From Candidatus Omnitrophota bacterium (lineage in GTDB: Bacteria > Ratteibacteria > UBA8468 > B48-G9 > DTJG01), in the NCBI GenBank assembly GCA_023818375.1, contig JAMWCC010000022.1, positions 1 through 34,366 of the forward strand: a stretch of DNA of 34,366 nt. The letters are read 5' to 3'. The position numbers were made by a program, and so were the translations under genes. Below are positions 1 to 4,179 of the stretch, one piece after another; position 1 is the first letter of the stretch, and every line of letters starts with the position of its first letter. The notes beneath the pieces were generated by a model. That model saw only the letters and a program-made list of their open reading frames with translations. It was not told the origin of the DNA and made no database searches.

Positions 1-93
1 GGAAAATCCTATACCGAAGCAGTGGTCGCTACCTCTACTAAACTCTTGAGAACTATTTATGCCCTGCTTTCTCAGGATAAATCGTTCGTTTAA
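1..93 (+). CDS. IS110-family transposase, C-terminal end (partial)
   Basis: Reading frame 1 is open from the window edge to a TAA at 91-93 and encodes the last 30 residues of a protein. The pattern (GKSYTEAVVATSTKLL followed by RTIYALL) resembles the extreme C-terminus of IS110/IS116/IS902-type transposases, where a K-x(n)-A-x-VA-x(3)-KLL-x-x-IYALL stretch closes the protein. These are DEDD-type transposases that move without terminal inverted repeats. The stop lies next to the point where the opposite-strand gene loses its normal reading, as expected if the right end of the element lies just past the stop. The rest of the gene is outside the window, so the family call rests on a short match. 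Confidence 0.65.
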   Translation, partial: GKSYTEAVVATSTKLLRTIYALLSQDKSFV

Positions 94-107
94 CAGGACC
101 ATTTTAT
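1..107 (+). mobile_element. Right end of an IS110-like insertion sequence (approximate boundary)
   Basis: The transposase tail ends at 93. The interrupted minus-strand gene still reads family-like sequence (KRVNY) down to about base 108, so the element/host junction must lie between about 94 and 110. No inverted repeat or target duplication can be judged because the other end is outside the window. The exact boundary is an inference. Confidence 0.5.
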
Positions 108-434
108 ATAGTTGACTCTTTTTACAATATTATTCACTTTACGATTAACAAAAACTTCCTTTATCGCAACTGCTTTCTTACCTGTTTGGTCTTTTTCAAT
201 CTTCGGGAGAGAATAAACTATACTCCCATCCTTAGTAATGAACACAGTACCACCAAATGTGCTGGCATAAAATCCTACATTGTCATTTATCTGACCTCTA
301 TTCTCTATAAATGGAACTCCTACCTTTCGTAACTTCGCCTTCATTTGCCCTTCATCAATATTTGCTAAACTAAAAGACGAATAACAAAATAAAATCAAAC
401 CAGGAATTATCCACGTAATTTTCTTGTTCTCCAT
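90..434 (-). pseudogene. Secreted DUF7948/SBBP-type protein, truncated by IS insertion
   Basis: A signal peptide occupies residues 1-24 (hydrophobic stretch IIPGLILFCYSSFSLA). It is followed by VGVPFIENRGQINDN and FYASTFGGTVFITKDG, a pattern typical of the N-terminal beta-rich domain (DUF7948) found ahead of SBBP repeats in large secreted proteins. Such proteins are usually many hundreds of residues long; this reading ends after 114. The last family-like residues are KRVNY; the following IKWSC and stop come from the IS110-like element. The start is well supported by a strong ribosome site (AAAGGAGGGGAGG) before ATG at 434. It is the third gene of the cohesin/protease cluster, 44 bases downstream of the protease gene. 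Its missing 3' part may lie on the far side of the element. Function unknown; probably an extracellular surface protein before disruption. Confidence 0.6.
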
Positions 435-478: not shown

Positions 479-2479
479 TCACTCTAAACCTACTGCTTTT
501 CTCAATACCAATATGACATCTGAAATATCAACCACTCCATCAGAATTCATATCTGCCAGTTCTATCAACCAATCAGGATAAGGCAAAGAATAACTTTCAC
601 CTCCAATTGTTACATCGAGACCTACTGCCATCCTGAGACATAAAATAACATCTGAGATATCAATAATGTTGTTGCCAGACAAATCTCCTTTTTTCGGCAT
701 GCCTATTTCCTGTAGTATTTCTATATTGTCAATCGCCCAGTACATGGCATCATAAGCATTTTGATAATTCCACCTGATCTGTATCTGTGCAGTGCCTGTT
801 TTATTGAGATAATTATTCAGCGGCAGAATTAAAGTACCGCGTACATCCTGATATTGAAATCTTGCAATATTCTGCCAGTTTCCTGAATCAACCTTTATGT
901 CAATGTTTCCGATTTCAGAGCCATAGGCATTGAAAAATTGGTCTATTTTCAAAAATATCCTTTTGGATGTATCAATTGTAATATCTGGCGTAATTAGTTG
1001 CTCATTCATCCAGACCCTGCCTGCCCAGTCACTATCAGCAATTACAAAAGGACTGGTTAATTCAGAAATATTTCTGTTCTTGGGGTTTGTTGTTGTCCAT
1101 GTTTTTCCGTCATCGTTTCCATCAATTATTGTCCAGTCAAAAGGTATTCCAGTGTCGAATGATTCTCGTAACAAAACAGCAAAACCCTTTGAAATATTGG
1201 CATTGTGAAATGTATGAAGAAAATTTTTCCATTGGCCTTGAGCAAATTCAAGGTTGTCAGGATTATAGGCAGGATCCACTCCTTTTGATTTGTCAGGAAA
1301 ATAAATTGATAAACCCGTACCTTTTAGTTCCCCAAAATTTTCAACAATCATTGTATTTAGTATTGATAAAATCTGTACAGTGATATTAACCAGCTCGGTA
1401 TTGGATGCATTATCAAAAACAATTTCAAAAAAGGTTTTGAGATCCTTATAATCAGGGTCATCAAAACTTGATGTTTGAGATATGGCAATATAAAAATAAA
1501 GCCACTGGTTATCAATCTCAATTGCTGTTTGACAGAAGTTGTTTATTGCTTCAAATATCTGATTGCAAAAAGTCAGATCAATGGCTGAAAGGGTTTCAGT
1601 TCCATAATGTCCATAATAATCTGCATAATGTTGAACAATCTTTATACAGAATTGTAGCGGAGAATCATCAGGGTTGTTAACAATGTCCTGCGCAATCGGA
1701 GTATAGGGAAAACCTGTTGTATATATTGTTTCTTCTGAAGCAACCATATAGGTGGCACAATTTCTAATTTCATAAGCAACCTCAATCATTCCCATCAGAC
1801 AGGCATCGAAGGCAATAATATCAACATAACAATCTGGATCTGAAAGTGCCTGTCTTATTTCTTTAAGGGTTAGTTCATCAAAGGATGTACTGTCAAAACA
1901 TACACTTTTTTGATACCTTCTTGCGTGGATTTTCCTTTTCAGTTCCTTCAATGTTTTTTCAAGGGATGATCTTTCTTGCAGAGATAACCTGCTTTGTTTC
2001 AGTTGTTGTTCAATATTTTCGGCAACATTGGTCATTGAACGCCAGCCATCTCCATGGTCCCATAAAACGAGAGCATAATAATCAGCAGGATAATTTTGCT
2101 TTGCCCATCTCACGAAGGATGAAAGAGACTCAGGATCTCCTGAATTTACTTCTCTTCCGCCAAAGCCATCTCCCCAGTCCTGTATTGCATTGGAAATCGT
2201 TGGTTCCATGTTTTTCGTGATCCTAAATCTCTGTGTGTTTGTCCAGTTGTCATACCTTGAATCATAACCTGAGATTCTATCAAACTGAACGATAAAATTT
2301 ATTTCAGGGGTTGAACCAACAGAAGCAATTTCAAGGAAATCATTTATTGCGTATTTTTCAAGGTTATTGTCACCATCAAGATAAATCATGATTGTCCACT
2401 TTGAAAGTCCATGTACGGGCAGAAGAAATGAAAAATATAAAAAGGTCAGGACCCAGATTCTGAGCTGAATCTTTTTCAT
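479..2479 (-). CDS. Secreted clostripain-family (C11) cysteine protease with C-terminal dockerin
   Basis: Residues 1-24 form a signal peptide. Residues 26 to about 425 match peptidase family C11: WTIMIYLDGDNNLE at the start, catalytic His142 in LWDHGDGW and Cys227 in FDACLMG. C11 enzymes cut after basic residues. A charged, coiled-coil-like insert (about 152-192) lies between His and Cys, where clostripains may be processed. Residues about 430-590 look like a beta-sandwich domain (DWTIIDGNDDGKTW, YWAIDNIEI). Residues 598-666 are a type I dockerin: two copies of D-x-S/N-x-N/D-x(3)-DISDVIL-x-LR-x-AVGL. The second calcium loop is canonical (DMNSDGVVDISD); the first is degenerate (DLSGNNIIDISD). 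ATG overlaps the stop of the upstream cohesin gene (ATGA), and no ribosome site is seen, so translation is probably coupled. The enzyme is expected outside the cytoplasm, docked on the neighbouring cohesin protein. Confidence 0.9.
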   Translation of the reverse strand: MKKIQLRIWVLTFLYFSFLLPVHGLSKWTIMIYLDGDNNLEKYAINDFLEIASVGSTPEINFIVQFDRISGYDSRYDNWTNTQRFRITKNMEPTISNAIQDWGDGFGGREVNSGDPESLSSFVRWAKQNYPADYYALVLWDHGDGWRSMTNVAENIEQQLKQSRLSLQERSSLEKTLKELKRKIHARRYQKSVCFDSTSFDELTLKEIRQALSDPDCYVDIIAFDACLMGMIEVAYEIRNCATYMVASEETIYTTGFPYTPIAQDIVNNPDDSPLQFCIKIVQHYADYYGHYGTETLSAIDLTFCNQIFEAINNFCQTAIEIDNQWLYFYIAISQTSSFDDPDYKDLKTFFEIVFDNASNTELVNITVQILSILNTMIVENFGELKGTGLSIYFPDKSKGVDPAYNPDNLEFAQGQWKNFLHTFHNANISKGFAVLLRESFDTGIPFDWTIIDGNDDGKTWTTTNPKNRNISELTSPFVIADSDWAGRVWMNEQLITPDITIDTSKRIFLKIDQFFNAYGSEIGNIDIKVDSGNWQNIARFQYQDVRGTLILPLNNYLNKTGTAQIQIRWNYQNAYDAMYWAIDNIEILQEIGMPKKGDLSGNNIIDISDVILCLRMAVGLDVTIGGESYSLPYPDWLIELADMNSDGVVDISDVILVLRKAVGLE

Positions 2480-4095
2480 TGTTTAAGATACAGTATCGGT
2501 ATAGACTCTCCCCTATCATCCCACAGGGAAAATCCAATTATTTTAACCATGTCAGGAGAAAAGTCTTTGGAGTAGTTCAATACAAGAGTAAAGATTGTTC
2601 CATCCTTTATGTTGAAGGATGGAACACAACCACCTTTAATTTCAAAGGTACTCCCCTTATATGATTGTCCACTTAATACCTTTATATCTGGTAAGGTCTC
2701 TATGGCAATGAATCTGATAGTTCGATCAAGTTTCAGATTGATTCCAAAACTTGAGATATTTTTCACCAAACCAGTCAACCTCAGCGGAATTTTTATTGAT
2801 GTCTCATCAATTATTGTTTCTCCAGCACTTGCGTATCCGTACGATATGATGTTAATTTTCTTTTTATCTATGGTTTTTTTGTCTTCAGATTGTGCCAGCA
2901 ATTCCAGTATATATGACCCAGCAGAAAGATCATCTTTCCTGTGTAATATTAGTGTGGACTGATTTTTTTGTGGGGTCAAGCATGTTTCGGTTAAAGTGGC
3001 GTCAAAATTCTGCGCAGCAGCTTGAATATATATAGGTTTATTGAAATTTCCTAAAAATCTTATTTTAATTGGTACAGAAATCTGTTTTTTACTGCTATCT
3101 ATCCTAATTTCATTTTCGGTTTCTATGAGAATTCCAGGTTCAACAGGCAATTTTTTCCATTTCCATATTATTTTTGAATCGCGATCAATGACAAATGAAA
3201 GCGTATTGTTTTTTGTATTGAACGCTGAACCTTTTCCTTCACATCCGATACAAACAACTTTTTCGGTGTCGCTAATTAAAATCTCACTTTCAACCTGGCA
3301 GTTGACTTTTTCCCCTTTTGTAAAACTTGTCACTCCAACACCTGGATAAGGATTCCCATAATCTGAAAGCACAAGTAATGTCACAATATCACCTGGTTTC
3401 TGCCGAGGTATTTCTTTCCTTGTTTCTTTTGTTTCAGTTTTTTCCATTTCAAGCAGGGTTAAAAGTTCATCAATGTCAAGATTTTCAGGTAGAGTTGATA
3501 ATGGTGGTTGACTCTCCTGTAATTTTTGGGATGATCGATCGGACTCTGACTTTGCCGTAGGCCTAACAGTAACGGGTACTGGTTTTTCTTTTGGTTTTGT
3601 TTCTTCAGGTGGTCGTTGTGGTTGAAGTTTTTCAGGTTTTTGAGGAGATTGATCTGTCCTGATGAAACCAGATGAAGCGGAACAAGGTATTGTTTGACCG
3701 TTTGCATCAGAAAGTTTCACTGATGAAAGTATCAGGTTTGAATATCCCGGATTAACAATCTGAAATTTCAATATTGCAAGAATTCCATTTCCTGAAACGC
3801 CTGAAAGGGTTGGATTGAAACCAGCAATTCTTATAGTTCCAGGGGTATTGGTGTTTGTCATCACCGTAAAAAGGGAAACAGCGGGTCCTTTTTGCACATC
3901 CAGTATTTTCAGAACCTGGTGATTATACTGTATCGTTAGTTGGTAGCCAGTAAAATTCTTTTCTGAAGAAAAAGAAATGTTTACATCGACAAAAGTTTGA
4001 GATGGATTGTTTATGGTTATCGAAGGGATTTCCACTATTGCCGCAAAGGAAATTGATATTAGAAGAAAAATCAGAATTAAAAATTTTTTTCTCAT
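2476..4095 (-). CDS. Secreted cohesin-domain protein (small scaffoldin-like)
   Basis: After a signal peptide (1-19), residues 20-147 read as a type I cohesin: FVDVNISFSS, YQLTIQYNHQVLKILDVQKG, GTIRIAGFNPTLSG, GILAILKFQI and a closing VKLSDANGQTIPC. Residues 148-235 are a Pro/Lys/Glu-rich linker. Residues 236-315 form a beta domain with GEKVNCQVES and SFVIDRDSKIIWKW, like InlB-B-repeat/W-x-W surface domains. Residues about 320-415 look Ig-like. The last 121 residues (419-539) resemble a second, divergent cohesin: IPLRLTGLVKNISSFGINL and a closing IIGFSLWDDRGESIPI that parallels the first module. No lipobox, LPxTG, SLH or sorting tail is visible, so how it is held at the surface is unclear. Its stop overlaps the start of the dockerin protease gene, making the two likely partners. 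The start lies 9 bases after tRNA-Pro and lacks a ribosome site. Confidence 0.8.
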   Translation of the reverse strand: MRKKFLILIFLLISISFAAIVEIPSITINNPSQTFVDVNISFSSEKNFTGYQLTIQYNHQVLKILDVQKGPAVSLFTVMTNTNTPGTIRIAGFNPTLSGVSGNGILAILKFQIVNPGYSNLILSSVKLSDANGQTIPCSASSGFIRTDQSPQKPEKLQPQRPPEETKPKEKPVPVTVRPTAKSESDRSSQKLQESQPPLSTLPENLDIDELLTLLEMEKTETKETRKEIPRQKPGDIVTLLVLSDYGNPYPGVGVTSFTKGEKVNCQVESEILISDTEKVVCIGCEGKGSAFNTKNNTLSFVIDRDSKIIWKWKKLPVEPGILIETENEIRIDSSKKQISVPIKIRFLGNFNKPIYIQAAAQNFDATLTETCLTPQKNQSTLILHRKDDLSAGSYILELLAQSEDKKTIDKKKINIISYGYASAGETIIDETSIKIPLRLTGLVKNISSFGINLKLDRTIRFIAIETLPDIKVLSGQSYKGSTFEIKGGCVPSFNIKDGTIFTLVLNYSKDFSPDMVKIIGFSLWDDRGESIPILYLKQ

Positions 4096-4104
4096 TTTTT
4101 AAAG

Positions 4105-4179
4105 TCGGGGCGCCCAGATTTGAACTGGGGACCTCTTGGTCCCAAACCAAGCGCGCTAAGCCAGCTGCGCTACGCCCCG
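4105..4179 (-). tRNA. tRNA-Pro (TGG)
   Basis: A full cloverleaf folds on the minus strand. The acceptor pair is CGGGGCG (4179-4173) with CGCCCCG (4112-4106), and the discriminator is A at 4105. The anticodon arm CTTGG/TTTGGGA/CCAAG gives anticodon TGG (reads CCN proline codons). The T arm is CCCAG/TTCAAAT/CTGGG. Length is 75 bases and CCA is not encoded. A TATAAT -10 box lies 9 bases upstream. The next gene on the same strand starts only 9 bases beyond the 3' end. Confidence 0.95.

Follow-up and report, generated by a model that had tools for sequence, protein, structure and literature searches.

Does a dockerin-bearing protease encoded beside a single secreted cohesin protein form a closed pair with it, or does it belong to a wider cohesin-dockerin system? 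This question is raised by a Candidatus Omnitrophota metagenome-assembled genome of 2.07 Mb (G000), whose contig C32 begins with the 34,366-nucleotide stretch that constitutes the window analysed here. A preliminary description had recognised there an overlapping gene pair encoding a secreted cohesin protein, hereafter CohA, and a C11 protease with a C-terminal dockerin, and had proposed a translationally coupled one-scaffold/one-protease unit, i.e. a small 'proteosome' on the cell surface. From comparisons across the genome, the genus and the class, the reading favoured here, at a probability of roughly 0.6, is a non-cellulosomal surface-display system based on predicted cohesin-dockerin binding, in which the protease would be docked at the outer surface on another cohesin protein, CohB.

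Table 1. Features of the locus on contig C32 of G000, numbered from the first nucleotide of the window.
Feature	Position	Strand	Evidence and remarks
CohA, secreted cohesin protein, 539 aa	2476..4095	-	PF00963 1.3e-9; without membrane or sorting anchor; orthologues in 10 other genomes
C11 (clostripain-family) protease, 666 aa: signal peptide, C11 domain, Cleaved_Adhesin-type beta domain, C-terminal dockerin	479..2479	-	PF03415 2e-56, PF07675 1.5e-6
Dockerin module of the C11 protease, residues 597-666, two calcium-loop repeats, long linker	482..691	-	Identity to other G000 dockerins; profile match to solved dockerins
N-terminal cohesin of CohA, residues 20-147	3655..4038	-	Pfam; AF2 and Foldseek, best match 2XDH
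C-terminal domain of CohA, residues 419-539, probable divergent cohesin	2479..2841	-	hhalign against cohesin profile; without Pfam match
ATGA overlap of CohA stop and protease start codons	2476..2479	-	Sequence
tRNA-Pro directly upstream of CohA	4104..4179	-	ARAGORN
Start of DUF7948 gene, cut short	90..434	-	PF25778 3.7e-6; frames on both contig ends

Both genes of the described pair are indeed present on the minus strand, sharing four bases (Table 1), and signal peptides are supported for both products. Among the five genus relatives in which the overlap is readable, G002, G003, G006 and G007 retain it and G004 does not; the tRNA-Pro upstream of CohA is apparently kept in relatives as well, judging from the read-through of upstream CohA frames in G003, G004 and G006. 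At the other side of the locus, the truncated DUF7948 gene probably continues on contig C121, where it ends in a dockerin. These two contigs are probably neighbours, since an IS110-like transposase is split between their ends (window 1-434; L021:13200-14824) and relatives have these genes on a single contig; the transposase sits within the DUF7948/SBBP-dockerin gene, which also carries a frameshift. A search for plasmid copies gave no match.

Regarding CohA, a cohesin had been suggested for either end of the protein, and the two ends fared differently. At the N-terminus, PF00963 covers residues 36-143 and is also matched in all nine orthologues scanned. In the AF2 model, built with nine orthologues, the N-terminal cohesin is confident and is followed by a linker of low confidence (most of residues 149-234) and then by beta domains, the best solved match of the cohesin by Foldseek being the non-cellulosomal cohesin 2XDH of Archaeoglobus fulgidus (TM 0.81, by target length). 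The relation of this fold to solved cohesins is borne out by Pfam, by a PDB profile search and by Foldseek. The C-terminal domain, for which Pfam gives no cohesin match, aligns with the cohesin profile over its full length by hhalign (P=1.7e-5, probability 79%), a neighbouring domain of CohA itself serving as a control that gives no match (P=0.12); in a PDB profile search its best match is again 2XDH, at E=0.11, which is not firm. Because the hhalign alignment and its control stand without a firm Pfam or PDB profile match, this second domain is graded as a probable divergent cohesin.

The architecture described for the protease is confirmed. The catalytic His/Cys dyad of the clostripain fold characteristic of peptidase family C11 is intact, His142 and Cys227 being invariant across seven aligned orthologues, and proteolytic activity is predicted from the sequence. 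The dockerin, for which a Pfam check had been suggested, does not itself reach the PF00404 cut-off, owing to about 13 extra residues between its two repeats, and was identified instead through the dockerins of its own genome. It shares 60-75% identity with eight of the nine others and 49% with the remaining one; some of these do pass PF00404, and a PDB profile search with a 19-row dockerin profile finds solved dockerins of cellulosomes, alignment and profile together delineating two calcium-loop repeats. Such long-linker dockerins are missed by PF00404 at several loci (window 482-691; L026:495-704; L028:7270-7479), so that genome counts made with Pfam alone are too low. A literature search for a dockerin combined with clostripain returned no paper from the collection searched.

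Of the seven genus relatives searched, six have CohA, one of them as a fragment at the end of a contig; elsewhere in the order, CohA occurs in four genomes belonging to other families. It adjoins the C11-dockerin gene, or is one gene away from it, in nine genomes, which represent three families: the protease gene lies directly downstream in six genomes of this genus, whereas a single gene intervenes in G011 and G013 (a foldase) and in G018 (a small CohB gene). To judge by this distribution, the pair is old. With the modules confirmed and the pair syntenic across genera, the view of a non-cellulosomal cohesin-dockerin unit around a protease is upheld. Of note, a single contig of G003 (C23, L067:1796-15267) carries on one strand, in a row, CohA, the C11-dockerin protease, an RCC1-dockerin protein, a HEAT protein, a beta-helix dockerin protein, a glucosaminidase, a short dockerin ORF, a cohesin-dockerin protein and CohB fused to a barrel.

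CohB is composed of a cohesin, usually further beta domains, and then a CFI-box-CTERM sorting tag (NF041770), which scores 100 bits in G007 and 105.9 bits in G000, the cut-off being 40. G000 has no other CFI-box protein, and in its assembly a run of N separates the cohesin part of CohB from the tag part. In most genomes, a gene for a TraB-like barrel directly follows CohB or is fused to it in frame, while no such barrel adjoins CohB in G018. TraAB outer-membrane exchange, as recognised by a TraB match over the curated cut-off together with an OmpA domain, was not found: the barrel matches TraB at 29 bits against a cut-off of 700, over the N-terminal barrel part only, and the G007 barrel protein has no Pfam match, OmpA included. 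A PDB profile search gave no hit for the barrel. The evidence for it is treated as weak because the AF2 fold is of low confidence and its best 50 Foldseek hits, nearly all of them outer-membrane barrels, have an E of 2.7e-3 or worse. The named lineages and the outer-membrane barrel are the grounds on which two membranes are presumed here. The proposed location on the cell surface is plausible in itself, not by way of a CohA scaffold, which has no anchor, the anchoring signal being instead the CFI-box-CTERM of CohB. In most of the class genomes having the barrel, its gene comes directly after that of a CFI-box-CTERM protein or forms a fusion with it (L075:3990-5145, L021:9336-10486, L101:3606-5958, L103, L104), and a barrel with a CFI-box protein without detected cohesin occurs in G001, G015 and G016; the barrel may be a general partner of the tag.

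The best evidence that the protease would be held at the surface by cohesin-dockerin binding, indirect but specific, comes from a swap of anchors. In two genomes of the sister family f4, G030 and G032, the orthologous C11 protease (L108:2647-4866 and L109:3337-5172, with 37% and 32% identity to the window protease) itself ends in a CFI-box rather than in a dockerin, and no cohesin or dockerin was found in either genome. One lineage thus has the tag on the protease, whereas the other has a dockerin on the protease and the tag on the cohesin protein, such that a plug appears to replace the tether.

In the favoured display system, the C11 protease would be exported by its signal peptide and would plug its dockerin, with calcium bound in the repeats, into cohesins encoded in its own gene neighbourhood. 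At the outer surface, CohB would act as the anchoring receptor by means of its cohesin, its CFI-box tag and, in most genomes, the adjoining or fused TraB-like outer-membrane barrel. CohA, probably made in step with the protease by coupled translation, would be a soluble partner whose one certain and one probable cohesin could cap or cross-link dockerin proteins, and about nine other dockerin proteins of G000 would probably share the cohesins. Such a system would probably serve to degrade proteins outside the cell or to process surface proteins. Conserved adjacency, co-occurrence, the tag of CohB, the anchor swap and the invariant active site support this system; it is weakened by four genomes with dockerins and no cohesin, by the occurrence of CohA without C11 protease in G016, by the location of CohA and CohB on separate contigs in G000 and by the weakness of the barrel evidence.

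Among the alternatives, the dockerin-like repeats could be general calcium-binding C-terminal modules, contributing to stability or export, with the cohesins having some other ligand. This explanation is favoured by the frequent presence of dockerin-like modules in non-cellulosomal genomes (cited in PMC9012536), by the excess of dockerins over cohesins and by the four dockerin-bearing genomes in which cohesin was not detected (G001, G021, G023 and G025), one of them 92% complete and G023 carrying a C11-dockerin protease. Yet cohesin and dockerin genes adjoin and strongly co-occur: among the 35 genomes of the class, all 12 with cohesins have dockerins as opposed to 4 of the 23 without cohesin (p=2e-6, a figure that ignores phylogeny). 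Natural cohesin-dockerin fusions and the anchor swap likewise argue for recognition between the two modules, and G001 retains the CFI-box protein and the barrel at apparently the same locus, which fits a secondary loss of the cohesin. A general role of the repeats is consequently held to be unlikely.

CohA could also be a co-translated escort or inhibitor, capping the dockerin of the protease or holding the zymogen until the surface is reached. Its position just before the protease, the overlap of the two genes, its signal peptide and its want of an anchor would all suit such a role, and so would the PPIC/SurA-type foldase gene lying between CohA and the protease in G013 (L073:1881-2714) and in G011 (L074:8895-9725, assigned by position and similar ends only). 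The retention of CohA in G016, where the C11 protease was not found, and the probable second cohesin, which better fits bridging, make this role improbable.

The closed unit of the preliminary description, where CohA and the protease would bind each other only, appears very doubtful. The four-base overlap kept in the genus favours it and G018 comes near to it, with two cohesins (CohA and CohB) and a single dockerin, that of the C11 protease, in three adjacent genes forming a minimal set. In G000, however, the search for other dockerin proteins that had been advised returned nine more, i.e. ten similar dockerins for three cohesin genes, namely CohA (C32), CohB (C121) and a 225-aa cohesin-dockerin protein (C100), each of which adjoins or includes a dockerin. 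Besides the C11 protease, the carriers are an M14 carboxypeptidase, an HExxH-motif protein, lipase-like RCC1/PGAP1-like, CARDB, FG-GAP and Fn3-associated proteins, and others. As known from cellulosomal dockerins, specificity is set by the recognition positions of the repeats; nine of the ten G000 dockerins have I-S there in both repeats, which makes a private one-to-one pair unlikely in this genome, and CohA has no anchor with which to form a surface unit. As for a chance pair of unrelated genes, it is ruled out by the conservation in nine genomes.

A cellulosome proper was also considered and rejected, no glycoside hydrolase, carbohydrate-binding module (CBM) or tandem scaffoldin occurring in the proteins scanned. 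Cohesin and dockerin modules do coexist in G000, as in cellulosome producers, and no tandem-cohesin scaffoldin with a CBM was found: the cohesins number one certain and one probable in CohA, one in the 225-aa protein and one in the CohB fragments of G000, and Pfam scans of CohA, of the 225-aa protein and of the G007 CohB revealed no CBM. Likewise, none of the Pfam-scanned dockerin proteins of G000 is a glycoside hydrolase.

Among solved structures, the nearest to the CohA cohesin is 2XDH, which belongs to the non-cellulosomal proteins of A. fulgidus, which we take to be AF2375/AF2376. In this archaeon, the cohesin and dockerin genes adjoin and a cohesin-dockerin protein exists in addition, the same as here; we know of no protease in the archaeal pair, and the present system differs by its wider dockerin set and its CFI-box/barrel anchor. 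In Ca. Stygibacter (Cloacimonadota), a cellulosome-like complex is predicted with dockerins on proteases (S8, C25), glycoside hydrolases, and a 3755-aa scaffold bearing tandem cohesins, CBMs and a surface-attachment C-terminal domain (PMC8542988). Both cases concern an uncultured lineage with dockerin-bearing proteases and a surface-attachment C-terminal domain, but the cohesin proteins are small here, the proteases are of the C11 and M14 types and the tag is a CFI-box. The cellulosomal proteases of Clostridium thermocellum and Ruminococcus, which are secreted, dockerin-attached and S8 or papain-like, operate in cellulose-degrading complexes (PMC12484212); dockerin attachment is common to both, whereas here the protease is C11 and no cellulolytic enzyme occurs among the scanned dockerin proteins. 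Regarding the anchor, the genes for Myxococcus TraA, a surface protein with an essential cysteine in its C-terminal sorting tag, and for the TraB barrel overlap, and a fused tag-barrel protein is known (PMC11980579, PMC3325183). The CohB and barrel genes overlap or fuse in a similar way, with the differences that a CFI-box stands for MYXO-CTERM and a cohesin for the PA14 receptor, that no OmpA domain was found and that the TraB similarity is weak.

According to PMC12997984, cellulosome systems are undescribed outside Firmicutes, the Cloacimonadota case being a predicted one (PMC8542988). While cellulosome-type assembly is thus described almost only from Firmicutes, the present system is compact, syntenic and located in an uncultured lineage presumed to be double-membraned. 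It is tentatively proposed, at somewhat less than even odds, that a cohesin fitted onto a TraA/TraB-like outer-membrane module would turn a directly tagged protease into an exchangeable docked part, giving a protein-degrading cellulosome-like platform outside Firmicutes with about nine other dockerin proteins. The exchange of tag for cohesin-dockerin pair offers a testable example of a shift from direct enzyme tethering to shared-receptor docking, and the small candidate cohesin-dockerin pairs supplied by the locus are amenable to testing in E. coli. Besides, the cohesin-dockerin proteins of G007 and G004 (L075:635-1192, L076:49-618) carry DIFD rather than DISD in both repeats at the recognition positions, possibly reflecting a second specificity.
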